In this document: in pieces, positions 8,810-54,593 of the stretch
Numbering within the stretch: position 1 is the stretch's first letter
Layout of the letters: each line of letters begins with the position of its first letter
Assembly: GCF_021353265.1 (NCBI RefSeq)
Contig: NZ_JAJTWU010000008.1
Location: 268,717-332,716, forward strand
Direction: 5' to 3'
Source of the DNA: Pelomonas cellulosilytica
GTDB lineage: Bacteria; Pseudomonadota; Gammaproteobacteria; Burkholderiales; Burkholderiaceae_C
DNA: 64,000 bases
Notes under the pieces: generated by a model
Database searches by the model: none
Seen by the model: the letters and a program-made list of their open reading frames with translations, nothing else
Told to the model about the DNA's origin: nothing
Position numbers and translations under genes: made by a program

Positions 8810-8825
8810 TGTCGGCATCAGAACA
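8810..8825. promoter_or_regulatory. NifA upstream activator site between nifB and the receiver gene
   Basis: TGTCGGCATCAGAACA is an exact TGT-N10-ACA. It lies about 77 bp before the nifB -24 element and about 53 bp from the oppositely facing receiver promoter, so one NifA site may serve both. Confidence 0.75.
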
Positions 8826-8901: not shown

Positions 8902-8917
8902 TGGCACAGCTCTCGCA
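8902..8917 (+). promoter_or_regulatory. Sigma54 promoter of nifB
   Basis: TGGCACAGCTCTCGCA matches the -24/-12 consensus with GG-N10-GC spacing; only the T before TGC is replaced by C. Predicted start near 8928, 28 bases before nifB. Confidence 0.8.
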
Positions 8918-15458: not shown

Positions 15459-16664
15459 ATGAACGCCGTGCTGCAAGACGCTGACACACCCGCCGACGAC
15501 GGCGAGGACTTCGACCTGCCGGATGACTGGCTGCTGCTGTCGGACCCCGACATCAGCGCCGTTGAGCAGCAACTCGTGCAGGCCGCGCTGGAGGAGCCGC
15601 AGCTGTCCTGCGGCCGCATGGTGCAGCACTTTGAGCAGCGCTTTGCCGCACACCATGGGCGCAAGCACGGCGTTGCGGTAGCGAGCGGCACCCTCGGCAC
15701 CTGGCTGCTGCTGCGCGCCATGGGCATCGGTCCAGGTGACGAGGTCATTGCCTCACCGTACGGCTGGCACCAGGTGGCGCATGCCATCACGCTGACGGGC
15801 GCGCGAGTCGTTTTCGCCGACATCAACTACTGGTCCGGTTGCCTGGACCCAGTGCGCGCTGCCACGCAGATCGGCCCGGCGACTAAGGCGCTGCTGGTGG
15901 GCAACGTCAACGGCCACCCCGCGGCCTGGGGTGAGTTCGAGGCGCTGGCGGCCGAGCGCGGCCTGCCGCTCATCGAGGATTCGACCGAGGCCATCGGCTC
16001 ACGCTATCGCGGCCGGCTGGTGGGCAGCTTCGGCCGCGCCAGCGTGTTCGACTTCTCCCAACCCTCGGCGCTGTGCTGCGGCGAGGGGGGCATGGTGCTG
16101 ACCGACGACGACGACCTGGCCGCCGAGCTGCGCTACCTGCGCGCCCGTTCGCTGAAGGACCGGCGCTCCGTGTCGGTGGGCTCGCGCGTGCCGATGCAGG
16201 CGGCGATGAGCGAGCTGACAGCCGCCCTCGGCGCCGGCCAGATCGCGCGGCTGGGCGAGATCCTCGCGCGCCGACGCCAGGTGGCCGACTACTACCTGGA
16301 GCAGATGCAGACCTTCGAGGGCATCAAGCCGCCGTACGTGGCGCCGGACGTCGACGAGGTGCACTGGATGGTCTACACGGTGCATCTCGGCAAGCGTTTC
16401 ACCGCCAGTGCCTGCGACGAGATCATCGAAGACATGGCCGACGAATCCATCGAGGCCGTCATGTACTGCCAGCCGCTGCACCAGCAGTTTCATTACCGCC
16501 AGCAGGGCTGGCAGCGCGGGCAGTTCCCGCTGGTCGAGCGCATTGCCGACCGAGCCGTCGCGCTGCCTTTCCACGGCCACCTGCAGCCCGACCACGTCAG
16601 GTTCATCGTGAAGACGATGAAGGACAGCTCCCTCAACGTCGGCGCCGGTGCCGCGATTTACTGA
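15459..16664 (+). CDS. DegT/DnrJ/EryC1 homologue without the PLP lysine
   Basis: The 401-residue protein has the fold-type-I sugar-aminotransferase layout: VQHFEQRFAAHHGRKHGVAVASGTLGTWLLL, GDEVIASPYGWHQVA, LIEDSTEAIGSRYRGR and, at the active-site loop, FDFSQPSALCCGEGGMV. In DegT aminotransferases this loop reads S-F-x-x-x-K-x-L-x-x-G-E-G-G; here the lysine position is Ser. Without that lysine transamination is not expected, though some DegT relatives use PLP for dehydration with His. An acidic N-terminal 30 residues precede the domain. It is tightly placed in the nifB operon (4 bp after one gene, 10 bp before the SIR2-like gene). Confidence 0.82.
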   Translation: MNAVLQDADTPADDGEDFDLPDDWLLLSDPDISAVEQQLVQAALEEPQLSCGRMVQHFEQRFAAHHGRKHGVAVASGTLGTWLLLRAMGIGPGDEVIASPYGWHQVAHAITLTGARVVFADINYWSGCLDPVRAATQIGPATKALLVGNVNGHPAAWGEFEALAAERGLPLIEDSTEAIGSRYRGRLVGSFGRASVFDFSQPSALCCGEGGMVLTDDDDLAAELRYLRARSLKDRRSVSVGSRVPMQAAMSELTAALGAGQIARLGEILARRRQVADYYLEQMQTFEGIKPPYVAPDVDEVHWMVYTVHLGKRFTASACDEIIEDMADESIEAVMYCQPLHQQFHYRQQGWQRGQFPLVERIADRAVALPFHGHLQPDHVRFIVKTMKDSSLNVGAGAAIY

Positions 16665-16674
16665 GTTTGATCTC

Positions 16675-17523
16675 ATGACCTACGCCACTCTGACCCAAAT
16701 CCCGGATGAACTCCTCGCCGGCCTGCAGTCCGGGCGCCTCGCGCCTTACCTCGGGGCCGGCCTGCTGAGTCTGTGCGACAACGTCGCGCTGCCGGCCGAC
16801 CCGGCGGCTCTGGCCGCCTTTCTGAGCGGCAAGAGCTCCGTGCCCGGCAAGATCCGCCACCGCGTCACGGCGGTCGCGCAGTTCATCGAGAACTTCAAGC
16901 ACCGCAAGACGCTCGTGGGTCTGATGGACGAGGCCTACGCCACATCGCCCACGCCGTCGCCGCTGCACCGGTGGCTGGCCGCGCTGCCCGCACCTTTGAT
17001 CGTGGATACCTGGTACGACGCGACGATGCGCCAGGCGCTGGCCGGACGCAGCGACTGGGCCGAGGTGCAGGGCCTGTCGCAGTCCGAACACTTCGGCTCT
17101 TGGACGGGGTGGTACGGCGCCGACGGCGCGCTGAGCCCCGACCCGGTCGAGGCCGCCACCGTGCTCTACAAGCCCTGGGGCAGCCGCCGCCCGGCGGGCA
17201 ACTACCTCGTGTCGGACACCGACTTCGTCGAGGTGCTGACCGAGATCGACATCCAGACGCCGATCCCCGAGATCGTGCAGCGTCGCCGCGCATCGCTTGG
17301 CTTCGTCTTCCTCGGCTGCCGCTTCAACGACCAGCTGCCCCGCGCCTACGCCCGGCAGATCCTCAAGCGCTCGGGAGGCCCGCACTACGCCGTGCTGCCC
17401 GACGAGCCGACGCGCATGGAGGCCCGCTTCCTGGAGGAGCAGGGCGTTACGCGCCTGGCGCTGCCCCTGGCCGACGTGGCCGCACAGATGACTGCAGCCG
17501 TCCCTGCGGCGATCGCCGCCTGA
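16675..17523 (+). CDS. SIR2-like protein with degenerate active site
   Basis: The 282-residue protein has the SIR2 NAD-binding opening LAPYLGAGLLSLC (GAG motif) and a SIR2_2-type layout, with LIVDTWYDATMRQAL at the TTNxD position and VLYKPWGSRRPAGNYLVS at the position of KLHGS. The catalytic His of HG is therefore Trp, and the Asn of the preceding motif is also lost. NAD hydrolysis or deacylation is unlikely; NAD binding may persist. ATG 16675 is used because it gives the usual short lead before the GAG motif. It is the penultimate group of the nifB operon, before a 2Fe-2S ferredoxin. Confidence 0.78.
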   Translation: MTYATLTQIPDELLAGLQSGRLAPYLGAGLLSLCDNVALPADPAALAAFLSGKSSVPGKIRHRVTAVAQFIENFKHRKTLVGLMDEAYATSPTPSPLHRWLAALPAPLIVDTWYDATMRQALAGRSDWAEVQGLSQSEHFGSWTGWYGADGALSPDPVEAATVLYKPWGSRRPAGNYLVSDTDFVEVLTEIDIQTPIPEIVQRRRASLGFVFLGCRFNDQLPRAYARQILKRSGGPHYAVLPDEPTRMEARFLEEQGVTRLALPLADVAAQMTAAVPAAIAA

Positions 17524-19049: not shown

Positions 19050-19121
19050 GTTTGTCGGGAATGCGACACATCATGCCCTGCGCCTTGGCGCTCGGGCGTG
19101 GCTTGTACTCGGAGGTGCCGC

Positions 19122-20448: not shown

Positions 20449-20517
20449 GGGTCCTGCTCCTGTCGAAGGCCGTTCGCGGCCCGGCCTTCGACGACATCAC
20501 GATGTGGCCGCTTTGTC

Positions 20518-21444: not shown

Positions 21445-21460
21445 TGGCACGGAGGCTGCA
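21445..21460 (+). promoter_or_regulatory. Sigma54 promoter of the AAA+ ATPase operon
   Basis: TGGCACGGAGGCTGCA matches the full TGGCACG -24 element and TGC -12 with exact GG-N10-GC spacing. Predicted start about 21471, 68 bases before the AAA+ gene. Confidence 0.75.
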
Positions 21461-21486
21461 ACGCTCCCGAGGCGTGGCCACAACCG

Positions 21487-21502
21487 TGTCCACAAGCCGA
21501 CA
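21487..21502. promoter_or_regulatory. TGT-N10-ACA site just downstream of the AAA+ promoter
   Basis: TGTCCACAAGCCGACA is an exact NifA-type site, but it lies about 16 bases inside the predicted transcript rather than upstream. It could still act, since enhancers work from either side, or be a chance match. Confidence 0.4.
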
Positions 21503-21538
21503 AACCAGCCGTCGCAAGCGGCCGCGCGGGATCCAGGG

Positions 21539-23290
21539 ATGAAGCTGCAACTCGATCGCCCCCACGTCCAAGCCCTGGCGCAGGCCTTTCCGGAGCTGCA
21601 GTCGCTGGAAGACCAGCTCCGCTTCGGGCACCGCATCGAGGTCGCGTCGGGCCTGCTCTCGGTACCGGCGCTGGAGATGCTGGCGCAGCTGTACGCCGAC
21701 GCCGGCGCCGCGCTTTCCGGCCGTGCGGCGCAGCTGCGCGCGCTCGTGGTGGCGCTGCGGGCGGAAGCCGGCGAGCCACGCTTCGGCCCCGGCAGCGACA
21801 TCGAGGCGCTGCTGCCCGCAGTGCTCACTCACCTGACCAAGCCGCTGGCCGATGGCGGCACTGGCCGCGGCTGGCTGTTCGCCGCCAACACGCTCGGCAA
21901 GCCTCTGGCCTGGGTGCCCACGCGGGTGGATTTCGTCCCCGGCGGCTCGGAGGAAAACGCCAAGTTGATGATCGAGCTGAAGGCACATGCCAAGCTGGGC
22001 ATCCTGACGCAGACGCTGCGCCTGGCCGAGGCCGACCTGCGCGGCGGGCGCGACGACGCCGGCGCCACCGTCGCCGAACTCCTGGCCGCCAAGGGCTGGC
22101 TGAAGGAAACGCCCGAGCTGCTGGCCGCCTGCGATGCCACCGCCGCCCGCTACGTTGAATGGCGCGGCCGCTACGGCGGGTTGTTCAACGGCAGCGGCAT
22201 CGGCTTCCACGCGGAGGACCCAAACGCCACGCACCGCGACACCGACTGGAGCCGCAAGGACCAGATCGTGCTCGCGGCCGGCGGCGGCACGGCCAGGCTC
22301 GTCAACGACGAGGGGGTGCTGCCGCCCCGGGGCGCCATGCTCGACGCACCCGGCGACGTGCTGGGTCCGTATCTGCGCAAGTGCGCCAAGAGCAGCGATT
22401 TCAACTTCGAAGCCGAGGCGCAGGCACTGCAGGCGCGACTGCAGGCGCTGGGACCGCAGGCGCCGTTCACGCAGCTGCCGGTGCATGCCTACCTGTTCAT
22501 GTTCCACCTGGAGCTACACCAGCATCTCTGGGTGCATGTGGACGACATCGAGCCGCATGTCTTCGACGCCGGTCTCAAGCACAAGCTCGTGCTGCCGCGG
22601 GAGCAGACCGACCTCATCGACATCCTCACCGCCGAGATGGACGTGCTGATGGACGACGTCGTCGCCGGCAAGGGCGGCGGCACGACCGTGCTGTGCGCCG
22701 GCCCTCCGGGTGTGGGCAAGACGCTCACGGCCGAGGTCTACGCCGAGATCATCGGCCGCCCGCTTTACCGCGTGCACTCGGGGCAGCTGGGGCTCAACGT
22801 ATCGCAGATGGAGCAGGCGCTGAAGGAGGCACTGACGCGCGCGCAGCGCTGGGGTGCCGTCATGCTCATCGACGAGGCCGACGTCTATATCCGCAAGCGC
22901 AGCGACGACATCGCGGCCAACGCCGTGGTGGGCGTGTTTCTGCGCGTGCTGGAGTACTTCAATGGCCTGCTGTTCCTCACGACCAACCGCATCGACGATA
23001 TCGACGAGGCCATCGTCAGCCGCTGCATCGCGCTCATCCGCTACTCGCCGCCCGACCAGGCCGCGCGCGAGCGCATCTGGCGCGTGATGGCGGAGCAGTT
23101 CGGCCTGCAGCTCGATGCGGCTCTCGTCACGACGCTGGCTGCCACCTACCCGCAGGCCACCGGGCGCGACATCAAGGGGCTGGCCAAGCTGGTGGCCAAG
23201 ACATGCCGGCACCAGGGACTGGAGCCGACGCTCACGGTCTTCGCCCGCTGCGCACTGTTCCGCGCCATGGATCCCGCCGAGATAGCCTGA
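21539..23290 (+). CDS. AAA+ ATPase of unknown role, nif-regulon candidate
   Basis: The 583-residue protein has a long N-terminal region (about residues 1-360) with no motif I recognise and a C-terminal AAA+ module: Walker A AGPPGVGKT (about residue 386), Walker B VMLIDEADVYI (about residue 444), sensor-like LLFLTTNRIDDIDEAIVSR and a lid domain. The module resembles membrane- or complex-remodelling AAA proteins of the classic clade (arginine pair in VSRC region). It overlaps the HepT-like gene by one base and is driven by a strong sigma54 promoter, so it may remodel a nitrogenase-related complex. No nitrogenase partner is proven. Confidence 0.82.
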   Translation: MKLQLDRPHVQALAQAFPELQSLEDQLRFGHRIEVASGLLSVPALEMLAQLYADAGAALSGRAAQLRALVVALRAEAGEPRFGPGSDIEALLPAVLTHLTKPLADGGTGRGWLFAANTLGKPLAWVPTRVDFVPGGSEENAKLMIELKAHAKLGILTQTLRLAEADLRGGRDDAGATVAELLAAKGWLKETPELLAACDATAARYVEWRGRYGGLFNGSGIGFHAEDPNATHRDTDWSRKDQIVLAAGGGTARLVNDEGVLPPRGAMLDAPGDVLGPYLRKCAKSSDFNFEAEAQALQARLQALGPQAPFTQLPVHAYLFMFHLELHQHLWVHVDDIEPHVFDAGLKHKLVLPREQTDLIDILTAEMDVLMDDVVAGKGGGTTVLCAGPPGVGKTLTAEVYAEIIGRPLYRVHSGQLGLNVSQMEQALKEALTRAQRWGAVMLIDEADVYIRKRSDDIAANAVVGVFLRVLEYFNGLLFLTTNRIDDIDEAIVSRCIALIRYSPPDQAARERIWRVMAEQFGLQLDAALVTTLAATYPQATGRDIKGLAKLVAKTCRHQGLEPTLTVFARCALFRAMDPAEIA

Positions 23291-23649
23291 TGTACCAACG
23301 CAGCCTCTACGAGATCGTCATGGACACCGGCCGCAGCATCGGGGACCTGACGCGCGAGATGCAGGGCGAAGACGAGCTGTTCGCCAGCACGTTGACGCTG
23401 CGCGCCGTCGAGGCGCAGCTGCTCATCATGGCCCACACGCTGGGCAACGTGACGCCGCTGCTGCACCAGAAGCTGCACCAGGCCGACTGGCTCGGCTGGG
23501 CCACGCTGCACGACAAGCTGCGCCGCGGCGTCCAGCCGCGCCGCGAGGAGATCTGGTACGCCGTCAACGCTCTCGTGCCACAGACCATGGGCCTGCTGCA
23601 CGACCTGCGGCGGCGCCAGCCCGCCTTGTTTGAATGGGAGTTGGGTTGA
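23290..23649 (+). CDS. HepT-like (DUF86-type) helical protein, copy 1
   Basis: The 119-residue helical protein contains RAVEAQLLIMAHTLGNVTPLL, then DWLGWATLHDKLRRG and IWYAVNALVPQTMGLLHDL, with end RRRQPALFEWELG. The order resembles HepT/DUF86 toxins, but the RNase motif (R-x4-H-x-Y) is absent. A second copy at 52468-52821 has the same closing pattern (RRSEPALFEF). No MNT-type antitoxin is adjacent; instead it overlaps the AAA+ ATPase gene and the luciferase-like gene by a few bases. It is more likely a binding subunit of the AAA+ protein than a toxin. Confidence 0.6.
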   Translation: MYQRSLYEIVMDTGRSIGDLTREMQGEDELFASTLTLRAVEAQLLIMAHTLGNVTPLLHQKLHQADWLGWATLHDKLRRGVQPRREEIWYAVNALVPQTMGLLHDLRRRQPALFEWELG

Positions 23650-24605
23650 TGTCTTCCGTCCCGCGCCTGGGGTATCTGTGCCTCAGCGAGAACCCCAGTT
23701 CTGAAACCGGCCGCGCGTTGGTGCGGCAGTTCGTCCTCGTGCGCGAGGCCGACCGCATGGGCTACGACGACATCTGGATCGGCGAGCAGCATGGCGACCC
23801 GGCCTGGCCGCAGGGCGGCGTGCTGGCCCTGCTGGGACACCTGGCTGCTGTGACGAGCAAGGCGCGCATCGGCGTGCTGCCGCTGGTGCCGGCATTGCGA
23901 GACGTACGGCTGCTGGCCGAGGAGTTCGCGACGCTGGAGCTGCTGTCCAAGGGCCGCTTCGAGTTTGCGCTGGCCAGTGGGGCGGCCATTCCTGAGTTGC
24001 TGGCCCAGCATGGGCTGGACGCGGCCGCCTCACGCGCCGCGCTGCTCGCGGCTTGGTCGCTGCTGGGGGCGCTGGCACCTCAGGCCGATACCGCCTGGCC
24101 GCCACGGCTGGCCGCCTTGCAGCCCATGCCGCGCCGGCTGTGGCTCGCGGCGGACGACGCAGCCACCTTGACCGCGCTGGCACCAACCGGCGCCGGCCTG
24201 GTCGCCGCAGCCACGCACACCTGCGAACGCGTGCGGGCGGCGCTGTCCTCCTGGCAGGCCGCGGGCGGCCCGGCGCAGCTGACGCTGGCGCGCTTTGCTT
24301 GCAGCGCCGACACGCGCGATAAGGCCATCGCGATCGCCCGGCCGTACTTCGAGTCGCTCGCCGCCCGCTCCACGGCGGCCGGCTGGGGCGCCGATCGTCG
24401 CCGCTCGCTCGCGCGAGACGTAGACGGCCTGCTGGCCGAGTCGCTGATCGGCAGCCACGATGAGGTGGCCGAGCGCTTCCGCGCGCTGGCCGCGAGCCAC
24501 GGTGCCACGCGGGTTGCTATCGTGCCCACCAGCGGCCAGTTCGACACGCATAAGCACATCCTTGCCGCTTTTGTCGACGAGGTGCGGCCCAGGCTCGACG
24601 AATGA
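23649..24605 (+). CDS. LLM-class flavin-dependent oxidoreductase-like protein
   Basis: The 318-residue protein has the bacterial-luciferase (LLM) barrel pattern: RLGYLCLSENPSSETG, EADRMGYDDIWIGEQHG, IGVLPLVPALRDVRLLAEEFATLELLSKGRFEFAL and a C-terminal LIGSHDEVAERFRALAA. Relatives use reduced FMN or F420. The substrate is unknown. The start at ATG 23649 overlaps the HepT-like stop (TGATG). Its tight packing in the sigma54-controlled operon argues for a nitrogenase-linked redox role, but there is no direct evidence. Confidence 0.78.
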   Translation: MSSVPRLGYLCLSENPSSETGRALVRQFVLVREADRMGYDDIWIGEQHGDPAWPQGGVLALLGHLAAVTSKARIGVLPLVPALRDVRLLAEEFATLELLSKGRFEFALASGAAIPELLAQHGLDAAASRAALLAAWSLLGALAPQADTAWPPRLAALQPMPRRLWLAADDAATLTALAPTGAGLVAAATHTCERVRAALSSWQAAGGPAQLTLARFACSADTRDKAIAIARPYFESLAARSTAAGWGADRRRSLARDVDGLLAESLIGSHDEVAERFRALAASHGATRVAIVPTSGQFDTHKHILAAFVDEVRPRLDE

Positions 24606-24865
24606 GCATCGTGCCGCCCACCGCCTGGGTCATCGCCGAGATGATCACGCATGATTACGTCTGGCAGGGTGCCGGCCACACCTGCGACGAGGCGCGCGAG
24701 GCGCTGCTGACCGCATGGCAGCGCCACCGCGCCGGTGTGTTGCGCGTGCACCCGCAGCTCGCCGATCGCCTGCCCGAGGCACCGCACATGCCGCAGCACT
24801 TCAAGATCCGCTACCGCGCCTACGAAGCGGGCGGTGGCTACCGCGGCGATGACCGGCTGGTGTGA
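24602..24865 (+). CDS. 87-residue protein of unknown family in the AAA+ operon
   Basis: The protein reads MSIVPPTAWVIAEMITHDYV, then GAGHTCDEAREALLTAWQRHR and PEAPHMPQHFKIRYRAYEAGG. No cofactor motif beyond one Cys and several His is visible. It overlaps the luciferase-like gene by four bases and is followed 7 bp later by the DUF2779 gene, so it is a real operon member rather than a spurious frame. Confidence 0.6.
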   Translation: MSIVPPTAWVIAEMITHDYVWQGAGHTCDEAREALLTAWQRHRAGVLRVHPQLADRLPEAPHMPQHFKIRYRAYEAGGGYRGDDRLV

Positions 24866-24872
24866 GGTGCAG

Positions 24873-26441
24873 ATGACCGTGCCACGCGCCCTGCTCGACG
24901 ACGACGACGTGCGCCACTGGCGGGCCTGTGCACGTCGCTTCTGGTTGCGCCGGCATTCCGGCACGGCGCCACAGCCGCAGGACGAGGATGAGCCCGCGGC
25001 GGACCCCGCACCAGGCCAGCCGCCGCGCGTGCCGGGCGTGGACCGTCTGGTGGAGGGGCCGGGCCGCGCGCAGGCACTGCGGGCCTCCTTCCCCGGCCTG
25101 GTGAGCCTGGCCGCGCCGCAGGACGAGGCGGGCTGGCAGCAGGCGGTGCAGGCGACGCGTGAGCATCTGGCCGCCACGGAGCTGCAGGGCGAAGCCTGGG
25201 CGCTGCAGGGCGCCTGCCTGGAGTGGCGCGGGCCAGGGCTGCCGGTGCGCGTGCGGGTGGACCTGATCACCCGCGGCGGGGCTGGATTTCGCATCTTCCG
25301 GCTGCGCCATGCCACGGCCGGAACCGAGGCGGATGTGGACGCCGTGGCGTTGTGGTGGCACGTGGCGCTGAAGGCCGGCTTGCGGGTGCAGGCGGGCGGG
25401 TTGCTGTTGGTGGACACCGGTTTCGTCTATCCCGGCCACGGCCTGTACGCCGGGCTGTACCGCGAGGTGGATGTGGGCCCGTCGGTAGGGGACCGCCCCG
25501 TGGACGACTGGCTGGCCGCGTTGCAGCAGTGCGACGCCGGCCCGCAGCCGCCCATCCCCCTGGGCGCGCCTTGCGGCCAGCGCTGCGAAATGATGGCGGC
25601 GTGTGCGCTTCCGACGCCGTCGCTGCAGGTCGTGAGTGCGGAGGCCAGCCTTGACATCGTCGGCCGTGAGCTCGCGGCCGAGCTGCGCGCCGAAGGCCAT
25701 GCCAGCCTGCATACCGTGCCGCTGCAGCGCCTGGCCGCGGGCCGCCACCGGCGCGCAGCCCAGGCCGTGCAGTGGGGTTGCCCGGTGATGGAGGGTGACG
25801 CCCGCGCCGCCTTGCGCGTGGTGCCGGGTCCGCGGCGCTGGCTGCGCTTCGAGACGGTGGGCTTTGCCGTGCCGCCCTGGGCCGGCACGCAGCCGTACCA
25901 GATCCTGCCGTTCCAGTGGAGCTGCGACGCTGAAAGCCCCGGCGGTTTCATCCAGCACATGGACTACCTCGCCGGGCCGGATGCCGACCCGCGGCGCGAC
26001 TTCGCGCTGTCGCTGATGGAGCACCTGGGCGATCACGGCCCGCTGCTGGCCTACAACGCCGGCTTCGAGCGCAACCGGCTGCGGGAGCTGGCCCTTCGCT
26101 TCGACGACCTGCGCCCGGCGCTGGAGGCGCTTGCCGCGCGCATCGTGGACCTGTTCGTGCTGCTGCGCGAGCACTACTACCACCCGGCCATGGCCGGCTC
26201 CTGGTCAGCGCGCTCGGTATTTGCGGCTGCGGTGCCGCAGTACGGCGCGCACCACTTCGCGTGCGCGTGGCGCGGTCAGCTGCTGGAGAGTCCGCTGCAG
26301 GCCTTTGCTGCCGTGCAGCACAAGAGTGTCAGCGTGGCCGAGCGGCGTGCGGTGTTCGACTCGCTACGCGCCCACGGCCGTCGCCACTGCGCGGCGCTGC
26401 GCGGCTTGACACGGTTGCTGGAGGACGAGGCGAGTGACTGA
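24873..26441 (+). CDS. DUF2779-domain protein with Cas4-like front
   Basis: The 522-residue protein has an N-terminal part (1-260) that resembles the PD-(D/E)XK/Cas4-like region seen in DUF2779 proteins, including RHWRACARRFWLRR and a late Cys set GAPCGQRCEMMAACALP. The C-terminal part carries the DUF2779 pattern: YQILPFQWSCDAESPGGFIQHMDYL, DPRRDFALSLMEHLG, LLAYNAGFERNRLREL, RIVDLFVLLREHYYHPAMAGSWSARSVF, like an exonuclease-type fold with acidic residues. ATG 24873 has GAGG upstream; ATG 24849 is an alternative. A nuclease-like gene in a nif operon is unusual, and the function is unknown. Confidence 0.7.
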   Translation: MTVPRALLDDDDVRHWRACARRFWLRRHSGTAPQPQDEDEPAADPAPGQPPRVPGVDRLVEGPGRAQALRASFPGLVSLAAPQDEAGWQQAVQATREHLAATELQGEAWALQGACLEWRGPGLPVRVRVDLITRGGAGFRIFRLRHATAGTEADVDAVALWWHVALKAGLRVQAGGLLLVDTGFVYPGHGLYAGLYREVDVGPSVGDRPVDDWLAALQQCDAGPQPPIPLGAPCGQRCEMMAACALPTPSLQVVSAEASLDIVGRELAAELRAEGHASLHTVPLQRLAAGRHRRAAQAVQWGCPVMEGDARAALRVVPGPRRWLRFETVGFAVPPWAGTQPYQILPFQWSCDAESPGGFIQHMDYLAGPDADPRRDFALSLMEHLGDHGPLLAYNAGFERNRLRELALRFDDLRPALEALAARIVDLFVLLREHYYHPAMAGSWSARSVFAAAVPQYGAHHFACAWRGQLLESPLQAFAAVQHKSVSVAERRAVFDSLRAHGRRHCAALRGLTRLLEDEASD

Positions 26442-26442
26442 T

Positions 26443-26730
26443 TCAAAGCGTCAGGATCTGCGGCTCATCGTCGCCGACCGAGATTTCGGCTTCGACCAAG
26501 CGGCCGTCGTCACCCCAGCGGTAGACGTGGCGCAGCTCGACGTCGCCGTAGACCAGCTTCTCGCACAAGGTCATGCGGCCTCCCGCGTCATACGCCGCGC
26601 GGAAATAGGTGTTGCGGTTGCGCATTGCGTCTGGCGCCAGTTCCTCGACCAGCTGCAGCGGCAGCCGCACGCCGCGATAGGTCAGGAAGTAGCGCCAGTG
26701 GGTGCCGGTCTCGGCGTCGGTCGTGTTCAT
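26443..26730 (-). CDS. Small unknown protein in nif context
   Basis: The 95-residue protein reads MNTTDAETGTHWRYFLTYRG, VRLPLQLVEELAPDAMRNRNTYFRAAYDAGGRM, then ELRHVYRWGDDGRLVEAEISVGDDEPQILTL. It looks like a compact beta-rich domain. I do not recognise a named function. It converges on the DUF2779 gene (1 bp apart) and is divergent, with only 20 bp between starts, from the 55-residue gene at 26751. Confidence 0.6.
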   Translation of the reverse strand: MNTTDAETGTHWRYFLTYRGVRLPLQLVEELAPDAMRNRNTYFRAAYDAGGRMTLCEKLVYGDVELRHVYRWGDDGRLVEAEISVGDDEPQILTL

Positions 26731-26750: not shown

Positions 26751-26918
26751 GTGACGGTTCAACAACTGATGGCGCAGCTGGCAGCGCTTCCGCCCGAGGC
26801 GACGGTGCTGCTGGAGGGCGATGGCGGGCTCTCGCCACTGGGCGGCGTTGACTTGATGGCCGGCGTTGGTGGCTTGCCCGACGAGGTCGTCCTCCAACCC
26901 GACATGACGCCCGATTGA
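26751..26918 (+). CDS. 55-residue protein, unknown function
   Basis: GTG 26751 follows a strong GGAGGTGGGGG ribosome site. The protein MTVQQLMAQLAALPPEATVLLEGDGG ... LPDEVVLQPDM is a short helix-plus-strand domain of a kind seen in small conserved proteins, and its frame runs into the start of the next gene. The good ribosome site and tight coupling support it as a real gene despite its length. Confidence 0.5.
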   Translation: MTVQQLMAQLAALPPEATVLLEGDGGLSPLGGVDLMAGVGGLPDEVVLQPDMTPD

Positions 26919-26923
26919 TCGCG

Positions 26924-27739
26924 ATGAACGAATTGCTCTTCACCGACGGCGCGCTGTGCGCGGCCCTCGTGCGCACCGGCGCCGACGAGGCCGCACCGCG
27001 CGCGCAACTGCCTACGCTGTTGGCATTGGCGGCGGCCAGTGGCCGCTTCGTCCGCATGACGCCCGAGGAGCGCTGGGCCGTGTTCGAGGCCGCGCTGGGC
27101 GGCCCGAGGCCATCGGTGGCGTTCGAGGCCATGCGCCAGCACCGCGCGCTGGCAGTGCTGCTGCCGGAGCTGCCGGGCCTGTTCGGCGTGCCGCAGCTGA
27201 GCGACGGGCCGGACTGGCAGGACGTGGGCGAGCACCAGTGGCGCTTCATCGACGAAACCGCCCGGGCCGGCGCGCCGCTGGTCGTGCGGTTCGCGGCGCT
27301 GGTGCACAAGCTCGGCAAGGCGGGCACGCCACGAGAGATCTGGCCTAGCCACTACAAGCATGAGCTGCGCGCCCATGCGGCGATCGACGCGCTGGCTCGG
27401 CGCATGGCCGTGCCCCCCGAGATGCTGGACCTGGCCCACCTGGGCGTCGACGAGCTGGACCGCGTGCACAAGGTGGCCGACCTGCGCGCCGGGCCCATCG
27501 CGCAACTGCTGCAGAGGGTGCAGGCGCGCGAGCGGCCCGAGCGTTTCGAGCGGCTGCTGCTGCTGGCGGCCTGCGACTGGGCGGCCTACCCGGGCCATTG
27601 CGTCGCCGAGTACCCGAAGGCGGCGCGGTTGCGGCTGGCGCTCCGGGCGAGCGACGCGGTGCCGGCGGCGGGCCTGTCGGCCGACGACCTGCTGCAGGCG
27701 CAGGCCGAGGCGGTGCACGCGGCATTGCGGGTTCGCTGA
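26924..27739 (+). CDS. HD-domain-only relative of CCA-adding enzyme, with HD changed to HK
   Basis: The 271-residue protein matches the C-terminal part of bacterial tRNA nucleotidyltransferase (Cca): ERWAVFEAALGGPRPSVAFEAMRQHRAL, LLPELPGLFGVPQLSD, RFAALVHKLGKAGTPREIWPSHYKHELRAH and LLLAACDWAAYPGHCVAEYP. The nucleotidyltransferase head domain is missing altogether. In Cca phosphohydrolases the metal pair reads HDLGK; here it is HKLGK, so metal-dependent hydrolysis is probably lost. ATG 26924 is preferred over TTG 26915. Its closeness to the nif accessory genes suggests recruitment as a binding protein. Confidence 0.75.
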   Translation: MNELLFTDGALCAALVRTGADEAAPRAQLPTLLALAAASGRFVRMTPEERWAVFEAALGGPRPSVAFEAMRQHRALAVLLPELPGLFGVPQLSDGPDWQDVGEHQWRFIDETARAGAPLVVRFAALVHKLGKAGTPREIWPSHYKHELRAHAAIDALARRMAVPPEMLDLAHLGVDELDRVHKVADLRAGPIAQLLQRVQARERPERFERLLLLAACDWAAYPGHCVAEYPKAARLRLALRASDAVPAAGLSADDLLQAQAEAVHAALRVR

Positions 27740-30333: not shown

Positions 30334-31317
30334 TCATTGCAACGCATGGGCGACGAGGGCGCTGGCCTGGTCGCACACGGCTTGTCGAGTGCCGGCCTGC
30401 AGGCGGGCCAGCCAGTCGCGCGGCAGGCGGCTGGCGCCGCAGCATGCGCCGGCCAGCATGCCGACGAGGGCGCCGGTGGTGTCGGCGTCCTCGCCACGAT
30501 TGACGGCGTCCACCACGGCGTCGGCAAAGCAGTCGTGCCGCGTGAATGCGTGCAGCACCGTCTGCACTGTGTCCACGATGTAGCCGCTGGCGCGGCCGGG
30601 GTAGGGGTCGAAGCGGAAGGCTGGCCGCTGCACGATCCACGCGTCGATTCGCTGCCTCAGCCCCGCCCGCGGCACGCCCAACACGGCGGCCTGCACCAGC
30701 GCGCCGAGCTGCAGCGTGGCGCTGTCGGACAGCGGATGGTGGTGCGTGATGCGCGCCTGGCCCAGCGCCAGCGCGGCGAAACCGGCGGGGTCGCCCAGCG
30801 TGGCGAGCGCGGCGGGCAGCACGCGCATGGCCGCGCCGTTGCCGCCGTCGCTCTCGCTGGGCGGGCCGGCCAGCGTGCCGTCGTGCCGGTAGCGCAGGAT
30901 GCCTCGCCGGCAGGTGTTGCCGCAGTCCACCGGGCGGGCGCGCCACCATGCGACGAAGGCGTCGGCCACGGCCAGCAGGTCGTGCGAGGTGGCGTCGGTG
31001 CACTGGCAGATTGCCTCGCCGAGCGCCAGGCTCATCGTCGTGTCGTCCGTCACCTGGCCTGACTTCAGTCGCAGCCAGCCGCCGCCCTGGATGCGGTCGT
31101 GAACGCCGAAGCGCAGCGTGATTTCCCGCGGCGTCATGAATTCGACGGTCGCGCCCAATGCGTCGCCCAGCGCCAGGCCCAGATAGGCACCGAGCGCGCG
31201 GTCCATCACGGCGGGCAGGCCGCCGGCGGCGGTCAGCAGCCCGGCGACGTCCGCAGGCCCGGGCGGAAAGCGGGGCAGCCAGCGCGGTGCGGCGGGGGGC
31301 GCCAGCGTGTCAGTCAT
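30334..31317 (-). CDS. draG: DraG, dinitrogenase reductase-activating glycohydrolase
   Basis: DraG removes ADP-ribose from NifH Arg and restores activity when nitrogen or energy is again favourable. The 327-residue protein has the ADP-ribosylglycohydrolase pattern: MDRALGAYLGLALGDALGATVEFM, VTDDTTMSLALGEAI (first metal-binding pair) and NRGEDADTTGALVGMLAGA (second, late acidic pair). DraG is usually about 290-300 residues; the extra length is an N-terminal extension of about 30 residues. It overlaps draT by 8 bp. Confidence 0.95.
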   Translation of the reverse strand: MTDTLAPPAAPRWLPRFPPGPADVAGLLTAAGGLPAVMDRALGAYLGLALGDALGATVEFMTPREITLRFGVHDRIQGGGWLRLKSGQVTDDTTMSLALGEAICQCTDATSHDLLAVADAFVAWWRARPVDCGNTCRRGILRYRHDGTLAGPPSESDGGNGAAMRVLPAALATLGDPAGFAALALGQARITHHHPLSDSATLQLGALVQAAVLGVPRAGLRQRIDAWIVQRPAFRFDPYPGRASGYIVDTVQTVLHAFTRHDCFADAVVDAVNRGEDADTTGALVGMLAGACCGASRLPRDWLARLQAGTRQAVCDQASALVAHALQ

Positions 31318-52467: not shown

Positions 52468-52821
52468 ATGATCGAAGCCGCCATGCTGAAGGTGATCCAG
52501 GAAACGGGTGAGGGCGTGCTCGTGCTCATCGACAACGTCGAGGCCGACGAGTTCCATCGCTCGCGACTCACGCGCCTGGAGGTGCGCCGGCTGCTCGGCG
52601 CGATGGCCGAGACGCTGCTGTCGTTGAGCGACGCGGTGCAGGCCGCCATGCCCGAGATCGACTGGGGCACGTGGCGCAGCGTGCAGCAGGGCTTGCGTGT
52701 CGCCAGCGTCGACAGCGACGAACTGTGCTGGGACGCGGCGCACAGCCTCGTGCCGGCCACGCTGTCGTGGCTGCGCGTGTACCGGCGCAGCGAGCCGGCG
52801 TTGTTCGAGTTCAAGCCCTGA
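52468..52821 (+). CDS. HepT-like (DUF86-type) helical protein, copy 2
   Basis: The 117-residue protein matches copy 1 (23290-23649) in order: RLEVRRLLGAMAETLLSLSDAVQ, MPEIDWGTWRSVQQGLRVAS, VPATLSWLRVYRRSEPALFEF. The R-x4-H-x-Y RNase motif of HepT is absent. It stands alone with a sigma54-like promoter, before the ArsC/NifO-like gene. The two copies in one nif island suggest a shared nif-linked role rather than a toxin role. ATG 52483 is an alternative start. Confidence 0.58.
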   Translation: MIEAAMLKVIQETGEGVLVLIDNVEADEFHRSRLTRLEVRRLLGAMAETLLSLSDAVQAAMPEIDWGTWRSVQQGLRVASVDSDELCWDAAHSLVPATLSWLRVYRRSEPALFEFKP

Positions 52822-52956: not shown

Positions 52957-53370
52957 ATGGCCCAGATCCTGTTCTTCGAGAAGCCCGGCTGCGGCGGCAA
53001 TGCGCGGCAGAAGCTCGCGCTGAAGGCGGCCGGGCATGAACTCCAGGTGCGCAGCCTGCTGGCCGAGCCGTGGACGCGCGACAGCTTGCTGCCCTGGCTG
53101 GCGCCGCTGCCGGTGGCTGCGTGGTTCAACCGCGCTGCTCCGCGCGTGAAGAGCGGCGAGGTGGTGCCCGAGGCGCTGACAGCCGACGACGCGCTGGCGC
53201 TGCTGCTGGCTGAGCCGTTGCTGATCCGCCGACCACTGATGCAGAACCTGGGCGACGGCAGCCGCCGGGTGGGCTTCGACACGGCGGACATCGACCTGTG
53301 GGTGGGACTGGCGCCTGACACGGTGGCCAAGGCGCCCGCGCTCGACACCTGCGTGCGGCCGCAGGCCTGA
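52957..53370 (+). CDS. ArsC-family nitrogenase-associated protein (NifO-like)
   Basis: The 137-residue protein has the ArsC/Spx thioredoxin-like fold with ILFFEKPGCGGNARQKLALKAAGHEL and LLIRRPLMQNLGDGSRRVGFD, as in nitrogenase-associated ArsC proteins and NifO. NifO is linked to molybdenum use for nitrogenase. The active-site Cys is in KPGCGGNAR. It is separate from nifB here. Confidence 0.88.
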   Translation: MAQILFFEKPGCGGNARQKLALKAAGHELQVRSLLAEPWTRDSLLPWLAPLPVAAWFNRAAPRVKSGEVVPEALTADDALALLLAEPLLIRRPLMQNLGDGSRRVGFDTADIDLWVGLAPDTVAKAPALDTCVRPQA

Positions 53371-53410: not shown

Positions 53411-54313
53411 TCAGGCCGGCTTGGCGGTGCTGCGCAGCGCGGACTCCTCCTGCTCGATCCACTGCTTGAGCTTGTTCACGTGCTCGATCTCTTCGTTGAC
53501 GAACTCCTTCGCCACGTCGCGCACCGCGGCGTCCTTGGTGGTGTTGGCAATGGCGTAATAGAACTCGTAGCCACGGCGCTCGCCTTGCAGCGCGGCCTTG
53601 AGCGCGTCGAGCCGCTTCAGGGCGGGGTCGCCCTCCCACAGCGAGGTGCGCTCGGGCGTCGCGTTCTCGGGCCACGCGGTGCTGGCGGGCAGCACGACGT
53701 TGGCGTCGTACTTCTCGCACTTGGCCCGGGCCTCCTGCAGATGCAGCCGTGAATAGCCCGCCAGCTGCGCGAACAGGGCGGCCACGTCGGTGTTGCCCGC
53801 GGCCTTCATCGTCTCGGACAGGCGCTCGAAGTGCAGGGCGGCGTCCTCCTCCACCTTGACGGCATAGGACAGGAATTGATCGAGCGTCTTGATGCCGACG
53901 CCGCCCTTGTAGATGGCCGCTGCCAGTGACAGGGCAGGGCCCTTGACCGGCTTTGTCACGTCGCCTTCAAAGCGAACCTCGATGTCTTCATTGCGCACGA
54001 AGCACTGGCAGGCCAGGCGGTGGCGCGGCGGCATGTCGTTGACCTCGGCATCCATGATTTCCTCACGGGTGATCTTGCCGAGCTGTCGAAGCATTTCCTT
54101 CTCCTTCTCGGTCAGCGCGATGCCATAGCGCACGCCGGGCTGGTAGTGCCTGACTTCCACGAGGCAGGAGCCGCACTCTCCGTCGCCGCAGTCGAAGGGA
54201 ATGGGGATGTTGTTGGCCTTGGCCAGCGCGAGGAGGGTGCCGCGTTCGCCGGCAACGGCATAGACCGTGAGGTCGCGGGGCATCAAGGGAGAGGAGAAGG
54301 TGACGTTGGCCAT
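53411..54313 (-). CDS. [2Fe-2S] ferredoxin fused to a ferritin-like diiron domain
   Basis: The 300-residue protein has an N-terminal plant-type ferredoxin domain (residues 1-120) with IPFDCGDGECGSCLVEV and RLACQCFVR, and a C-terminal four-helix diiron domain (about 140-295) with VKVEEDAALHFERLSETMKAAG, SRLHLQEARAKCEKYD, GERRGYEFYYAIANTT and FVNEEIEHVNKL (ExxH). The fusion would let ferredoxin reduce the diiron centre, as in an O2- or peroxide-reducing rubrerythrin. A sigma54 promoter faces it, and a stand-alone diiron paralogue is divergent. ATG 54313 is preferred; the frame is open further. Confidence 0.85.
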   Translation of the reverse strand: MANVTFSSPLMPRDLTVYAVAGERGTLLALAKANNIPIPFDCGDGECGSCLVEVRHYQPGVRYGIALTEKEKEMLRQLGKITREEIMDAEVNDMPPRHRLACQCFVRNEDIEVRFEGDVTKPVKGPALSLAAAIYKGGVGIKTLDQFLSYAVKVEEDAALHFERLSETMKAAGNTDVAALFAQLAGYSRLHLQEARAKCEKYDANVVLPASTAWPENATPERTSLWEGDPALKRLDALKAALQGERRGYEFYYAIANTTKDAAVRDVAKEFVNEEIEHVNKLKQWIEQEESALRSTAKPA

Positions 54314-54354
54314 GGTGGGTCCTGAAGGGGGTTGTGGGGCGCAGCGGCAGCGGG

Positions 54355-54371
54355 TGCAAGACATGTGCCCC
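54355..54371 (-). promoter_or_regulatory. Sigma54 promoter of the ferredoxin-diiron fusion gene
   Basis: On the minus strand GGGCACATGTCTTGCA has GGCAC and TTGCA with exact spacing. Predicted start is 54344, 31 bases before ATG 54313. Confidence 0.68.
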
Positions 54372-54593
54372 CATTCGCCCCGGAATGCAGCGCAGGCGTC
54401 TTCACGCGCCGTTCGTCGGCCCGACCTTTCGGCGGGTTGCGCCAGATCAACAGTGCCGCAGTTGGGCACGCCGCAGGCCCGGGCCGTGCTTCACCTGTGC
54501 GGGAGATGCCGCGCGGGCAGCACGCGCCGTGCCGCATCGCCACCGCCGTTTTGCAGGCTGCCTATTCATTCGCCGCCCAACCGAGGAAGCACC

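Follow-up and report, generated by a model that had tools for sequence, protein, structure and literature searches.

A nif-linked AAA+ ATPase and a HepT-like protein as part of a loose gene module in a nif island of Pelomonas cellulosilytica

The DNA analysed here, referred to as the window, is a stretch of 64,000 nucleotides from Pelomonas cellulosilytica (assembly GCF_021353265.1, contig NZ_JAJTWU010000008.1, positions 268,717 to 332,716 of the forward strand); it has a G+C content of 67% and represents a nif island of a GC-rich bacterium. An initial annotation had singled out five genes in it as a candidate operon made together with nitrogenase. As it had stated, five open reading frames are found on the plus strand, each overlapping or almost touching the next. 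The first encodes an AAA+ ATPase of 583 amino acids (21539–23290, hereafter AAA), which is formed by an N-terminal region of about 300 residues and a single AAA module. The last base of its gene is shared with that of a 119-residue protein with a predicted HepT (HEPN) fold, which belongs to a nif-associated family and is devoid of the R-x4-6-H motif (23290–23649). An overlap of one base joins the latter to the gene of a luciferase-like (LLM class) flavin monooxygenase-type protein of 318 residues (23649–24605), and an overlap of four bases joins this one to the gene of an 87-residue protein (P87, 24602–24865). The DUF2779 protein of 522 residues (24873–26441) follows after a gap of seven bases. 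The 119- and 87-residue proteins match no Pfam or NCBIfam family above cut-off. A predicted sigma54-like (−24/−12) promoter is located on the plus strand at 21445–21460, 94 bases 5' of the start codon of AAA.

The assignment of AAA is based on its match to PF00004 (66.9 bits against a cut-off of 21.2, E 3e-18). The Walker A (GPPGVGKT), Walker B (LIDEAD), TTNR and SRC motifs are all present and are invariant or almost so across 60 AAA sequences. The N-terminal half harbors the motif HRx(T/S)DWxRK, which is found in five of five nif-type sequences and in none of the five non-nif sequences compared. The place of the pore loop is occupied by LGLNVA, which in the sequence alignment lies opposite KWVG/KYYG of VCP-like ATPases and contains no aromatic residue. 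The aromatic residue of pore loop 1 is a feature of classical threading AAA+ unfoldases.

The distribution of AAA follows that of nifD. Among 299 genomes drawn from the family (AAA match at E <= 1e-60; the 23 genomes over the nifD cut-off are taken as nifD-positive) thirteen were matched, seven of them over the full length (64–100% identity) and six, in the first listing, over the AAA half only (46–56%). Full-length AAA occurs in 7 of the 23 nifD-positive genomes and in 0 of the 276 others, and all six half-matches belong to nifD-negative genomes. In the class draw (369 genomes) nine matches were obtained, eight of them full-length, in 7 of 31 nifD-positive genomes versus 1 of 338 others. Fisher's test gives 6e-9 (family) and 1e-7 (class) with the genome of the window included, and 8e-8 and 1e-6 without it. 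A scan of named genomes yielded at least 546 confirmed relatives, the best 80 of which, from 79 genomes, were analysed as loci. These best 80 span alpha-, beta- and gammaproteobacteria and include Azohydromonas, Sphaerotilus, Ideonella, Methyloversatilis, Methylococcus, Bradyrhizobium, Methylocystis, Methylosinus, Beijerinckia, Azorhizobium, Azomonas, Thiothrix and metagenome-assembled genomes. A nifD match at E <= 1e-120 is present in 69 of the 79 genomes (68 over cut-off), a count that is not unbiased, because the 80 loci were picked by similarity to nif-type sequences. The distances of AAA and NifD are correlated over 61 genomes (r 0.435, 0 of 2000 permutations as high), which carries little weight as organism history is ignored. 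AAA is a member of a nif-linked clade, and its linkage to nif is well supported.

Among plasmids, nifD was found on 238 records, most of them from Rhizobium and Sinorhizobium; AAA at 60% or above was found on a single record, that of Methylococcus sp. EFPC2, which carries nifD too. The gene order there is nifL, isc, nifV, nifW, ferredoxins, grxD, bolA, zinc ribbon, hypothetical, AAA, P87 relative (48% identical to P87), FAH protein, two small proteins and glutathione S-transferase (GST). An ATP-binding protein encoded between nifT and nifE on a Paraburkholderia sprentiae plasmid was considered as a further relative and rejected: its 27% identity covers residues 384–528 only, and it is probably a different AAA. 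The same P. sprentiae stretch (L191:15567–17643; L and G numbers designate our loci and genomes) holds, besides this protein, a short segment matching the CCA-half protein of the window that is described below.

The HepT-like family is likewise tied to nif across genomes of the family draw. Its profile (A3, 17 members, searched at E <= 1e-5) matches 22 of the 299 genomes, namely 20 of the 23 nifD-positive and 2 of the 276 others (Fisher 6e-26). As the profile includes the genome of the window itself and apparently G052, G170 and G177, 16 of the 20 nifD-positive matches are independent. The nifD-positive genomes G091, G208 and G241 gave no match, and the two nifD-negative carriers are G008, an incomplete genome with a nifD-like fragment below cut-off, and G100, whose match is weak (1.8e-6). 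In 6 of 20 fetched stretches (L146, L147, L149, L150, L160 and L161) the gene lies between nifK/nifT and nifE. AAA was not found in these six stretches, and only G210, the genome of L161, has a full-length AAA elsewhere.

Comparison of the HepT-like profile with 14 true HepT proteins by hhalign gives a probability of 97.2% (E 4.6e-11, 93 columns). Pfam PF01934 is matched weakly by 4 of the 17 members (best E 0.01) and not by the window protein. The R-x4-6-H motif is absent from the whole length of 16 of the 17 members; the protein of L073 has one such string, which, judged via close relatives, lies off the aligned HepT columns. The C-terminal tail, with a conserved R-x3-P-x2-FE motif, is additional relative to HepT. 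The protein thus probably possesses the HEPN fold without the cutting site and would be catalytically dead. A second member of the family, 30% identical to the first, is encoded at 52468–52821 on the plus strand and directly precedes an ArsC-family gene at 52957. A small protein that follows AAA in four loci (c12) was inspected as a counterpart of the HepT-like protein; no resemblance was seen by eye.

It could be supposed that the two proteins are a remnant of a defence or toxin–antitoxin system, with an IetAS-like AAA and a HepT-MntA-like component, which settled in nif islands by chance. Weak profile matches of AAA to IetA and TRIP13 are in line with this, as are distant AAA relatives on plasmids and the phage family phrog_29662, which matches residues 305–577 (2e-90). 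The IetA score is, however, 35.1 bits against a cut-off of 510, neither a protease nor MntA is encoded among the five genes, the HEPN motif is lost, and the co-occurrence with nifD is strong. Such an origin is considered highly improbable.

For the neighborhood of AAA the loci were fetched to at most 10 kb on each side, several contigs being shorter. The five-gene order, for which the initial annotation had suggested a search of diazotroph genomes, was not retained: all five genes stand together in 0 of the 80 loci, several of which lie on short contigs. LLM, P87, DUF2779 and the three genes that follow the five in the window do recur in related nif islands, in varying order, and relatives of P87 lie directly 3' of AAA in other nif clusters. 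At least one of nifA/B/H/D/K/E/N/X/fdxN is seen in the fetched stretch of 24 of the 80 loci, and at least one gene of a broader list, some entries of which (NifS-like and FixC-like proteins, for example) are unproven relatives, in 51. The HepT-like gene is a near neighbor of AAA in 21 of 94 loci (15 downstream, 6 upstream; this count and those of other neighbors below, taken within 2.6 kb, retain duplicate genomes); the distance is 1.1 kb in L018, and in the others the two genes touch or are separated by no more than 60 bases. The genes form a loose, shuffling module and not a fixed five-gene operon. Of the proposed tie to nitrogenase, the co-occurrence of AAA and the HepT-like protein with nifD stands, and the conserved order does not.

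The promoter (TGGCAC-N5-TTGC) matches 10 of 11 consensus positions, i.e. it has one mismatch, and the near-consensus site claimed previously is indeed present. Its weight depends on the stringency of the search. With up to two mismatches the pattern is at chance level in the window (92 found versus 96.6 expected), whereas strict sites (GG and GC fixed, at least 10 of 11 positions) number eight, against a mean of 1.8 and a maximum of 4 in 20 Markov shuffles. Some of these eight precede nif genes: 8902 (nifB), 33545 (nifH) and 47047 (nifN). Of 89 loci (the 92 having 300 bases upstream, minus three duplicate genomes), 20 have a site with at least 9 of 11 positions in the 120 bases preceding the AAA start codon; the corresponding figures are 116 of 5340 (2.2%) for random positions in these loci and 5 of 89 for the reverse strand. 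Some other AAA genes sit within operons. Given the excess of strict sites and the sites before related AAA genes, the sigma54 claim is probably right, and sigma54 control of the AAA operon appears likely from these patterns.

The same is not true for the TGT-N10-ACA element. The copy reported near the promoter does exist (21487–21502, plus strand). It sits 3' of the promoter, within the putative 5' leader and on the wrong side for an ordinary NifA site, and was wrongly counted; the number of such elements in the window (6 versus 6.7 expected) corresponds to chance. One site with a single mismatch is found 180 bases upstream of the promoter. Two other copies, at 8810 and 33439, stand 92 and 106 bases ahead of the promoters at 8902 and 33545, respectively. 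Among the AAA loci the element stands 5' of the sigma54-like site in 9 of 92 (duplicates kept), compared with 1.6% of 3760 random positions.

The DUF2779 protein is clearly assigned (PF11074, 128 bits against a cut-off of 23.3, E 3e-37). We take DUF2779 to be a DnaQ-like (DEDD) exonuclease, with D-x-E as its motif I. In the window protein this motif is replaced by LRFET. The first residue is Arg in all eight nif-linked copies read (the window, L015, L045, L046, L047, L156, L159 and L163; the region is uncovered in L044 and in L042, a shorter stretch of the same genome as L015), and Asp in all ten other copies (L135–L144), two of which come from the nifD-positive genomes G355 and G491. The nif-linked DUF2779 protein is probably catalytically altered or dead. 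These residues bear on the idea, also put forward in the initial annotation, that the machine acts on nif mRNA. In that case the HepT-like and DUF2779 nucleases would trim the transcripts with AAA as a regulator, and the HEPN fold from the profile comparison, the DUF2779 similarity and the CCA-enzyme fragment encoded downstream would find their place. Action on nif mRNA is nevertheless unlikely, since the HepT-like protein lacks R-x4-6-H (16 of 17 members, the L073 string being misplaced) and the nif-linked DUF2779 lacks the first Asp of D-x-E; we give this RNA-processing model very little credence.

The LLM protein matches Bac_luciferase (PF00296, 101 bits against a cut-off of 27.9, E 9.5e-29), and a flavin cofactor is predicted for it. 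Enzymes of redox type are common around AAA: within 2.6 kb, GST is found in 23 of the 94 loci, an amine oxidase in 20, a SagB-like oxidoreductase in 11 (its gene typically ends inside AAA, with a median overlap of 4 bases), LLM in 10 and P87 in 8. Because these neighbors are mostly redox enzymes, another explanation stays alive, namely that the genes constitute a small-molecule or detoxification cassette of flavin oxidoreductases, GST, rhodanese and amine oxidase for nitrogen-fixing or microoxic life, in which AAA would mature or recycle one of those enzymes and not nitrogenase. It is consistent with the set of Bradyrhizobium BTAi1 (L080: amine oxidase, AAA, GST, rhodanese, oxidoreductase), which stands apart from nif, and with the placing of BRADO1842–1849 (strain ORS278 numbering) under ‘Various Catabolism/Detoxification’ in the available portion of PMC3899966. 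The HepT-like protein and the nif context are left unexplained by it, and the Methylococcus AAA stands among Fe-S and nif maturation genes. We consider the cassette possible, on the doubtful side.

Downstream of the five genes a DUF6156 protein is encoded on the minus strand (26443–26730), with counterparts near module genes in L156 and L163 too. It is followed on the plus strand by a 55-residue protein (26751–26918), members of whose family occur at up to 2.6 kb from AAA in 11 of the 94 loci (10 on the downstream side, 1 upstream), and by the C-terminal half of a CCA-adding-enzyme-like protein (26924–27739), in which the nucleotidyltransferase half is absent and which recurs in nif clusters. 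Eight of the 80 AAA loci contain this CCA-half protein, which is also encoded between nifT and nifE.

The nif character of the window is given by NCBIfam matches above cut-off for nifA (1923), nifB (8956), nifD (34692), nifE (41028) and nifN (47094). The gene modD at 20502 is supported by an NCBIfam match, modE at 19098 by ModE models that exceed the cut-off for the Mop domain only, and draG at 30334 by a Pfam ADP_ribosyl_GH match; nifH, nifK, nifX and draT were assigned by inspection, together with matches found in further nif clusters. No nifD match is present in any of the three same-genus genomes of the family draw (G030, G156 and G238), so the nif island is patchy within the genus. A DegT-type aminotransferase gene followed by one for a SIR2_2-domain protein (15459–17523, plus strand) is paired in the same way next to nifS-like genes in a number of related nif clusters, and a protein with 2Fe-2S ferredoxin and rubrerythrin domains (53411–54469, minus strand) has relatives between nifK and nifE elsewhere.

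The presence of NifA and draG-type genes in the same window allows one more interpretation, in which AAA or the HepT-like protein adjusts the expression of nif or the DraT/DraG switch and does not act on the state of the nitrogenase protein. HEPN proteins can bind nucleotides, which also speaks for a regulatory role. This appears unlikely: the HepT-like gene (L146, L147) and AAA together with the HepT-like gene (L065) occur in nif clusters where draT/draG were not found in the fetched stretch.

Taken as a whole, the module of AAA and the HepT-like protein is tentatively proposed to be a nitrogen-fixation accessory, with ATP-driven remodelling of nitrogenase or its assembly proteins and the HepT-like protein as adaptor; we put this slightly below an even chance. 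The ATPase motifs are intact and both would-be nucleases are deprived of key residues, which favours protein remodelling over RNA processing. A machine acting on nitrogenase proteins, the other half of the earlier suggestion, is our best guess from the sequences. We infer that the module would be expressed under sigma54 control along with nitrogenase, and that AAA would assemble into a ring gripping nitrogenase or a nitrogenase-assembly protein via its N-terminal domain, with the dead HepT-like protein as adaptor or holder. The use of ATP would then remodel the bound protein, freeing an immature, inhibited or oxygen-damaged state. As the pore loop has no aromatic residue, AAA would pull apart or reset a complex and would not feed a threaded chain to a protease. 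Among the neighbors, the flavoenzyme, GST, nitroreductase and amine oxidase may take care of oxidised small molecules or thiols while nitrogen is being fixed.

Several observations weigh against the accessory role. Full-length AAA is missing from 16 of the 23 nifD-positive genomes of the family draw, which means that it is dispensable and would help under some conditions without being essential. The HepT-like gene and AAA are close in just the 21 of 94 loci mentioned above, and hence are not a dedicated pair as a rule. The genome G536 of the class draw carries full-length AAA and no nifD hit, and 10 of the 79 named genomes are without a nifD hit, most of these being metagenome-assembled genomes or fragmented drafts by title. 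No other window gene is found near AAA in 9 of the 80 loci, some of them on short contigs; in Bradyrhizobium BTAi1 no window nif gene was found within 10 kb of AAA, and nifD is megabases off. Finally, no strict TGT-N10-ACA was found within 260 bases upstream of 21445, the copy at 21487 being downstream of the promoter.

Two uncharacterised families, an AAA+ ATPase and a small HepT-fold protein, track nitrogenase in proteobacteria. If they act on nitrogenase, they would add to the usual nif list a step of repair or maturation driven by ATP, and a full list of helper genes is needed for moving nitrogen fixation into other organisms. In the open-licence literature, as far as its text was available, no paper was found that names the AAA or the HepT-like family as nitrogen-fixation genes. 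The available text of PMC3899966 describes BRADO1842, 1843, 1844, 1848 and 1849 of Nod-independent Bradyrhizobium as amine oxidase, AAA ATPase, GST, rhodanese and oxidoreductase, and tables the set among strain-group-specific genes in a section on Nod-dependent versus Nod-independent strains. The gene order is that of BTAi1 L080, the likeness being one of order and description; that text makes no tie to nif, and in L080, as distinct from the window, the HepT-like, LLM, P87 and DUF2779 genes were not found near AAA. In Azoarcus BH72, azo3791 is given in the accessible part of PMC3916325 as a conserved hypothetical ATPase; its gene lies outside the nif cluster and has predicted sites for RpoN and NifA. 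It may or may not be an orthologue of AAA.

The best solved relatives of AAA are the CDC48/VCP-type ATPases, with which it shares the AAA module with Walker A, Walker B and sensor residues. It differs from them by having one AAA module, its own N-terminal region and no aligned pore-loop aromatic, and its NCBIfam CDC48 score is 37 against a cut-off of 803. The HepT-like protein resembles HepT toxins (PF01934) in the HEPN fold, as suggested by profile comparison, and is distinguished from them by the lack of an aligned R-x4-6-H, the extra conserved C-terminal tail, the linkage to nif and the absence of the MntA nucleotidyltransferase from the five genes. IetA of the IetAS anti-phage system is similar in the AAA module; the window AAA is far below its cut-off, is nif-linked and has no protease among the five genes. 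As for function, CbbX/Rubisco activase are AAA+ activases of metabolic enzymes. No CbbX model is among the 24 NCBIfam matches of the window AAA; the proposed parallel would be that ATP is spent on resetting a metabolic enzyme whose structural genes are adjacent. In its strongest form, which we regard as rather doubtful, the module would be a dedicated nitrogenase remodellase and the nitrogenase counterpart of Rubisco activase: a ring of the nif-specific AAA+ protein, aided by a dead HEPN adaptor, would reset or repair nitrogenase, or the NifEN/NifB complexes, once damaged by oxygen or wrongly loaded with cofactor.

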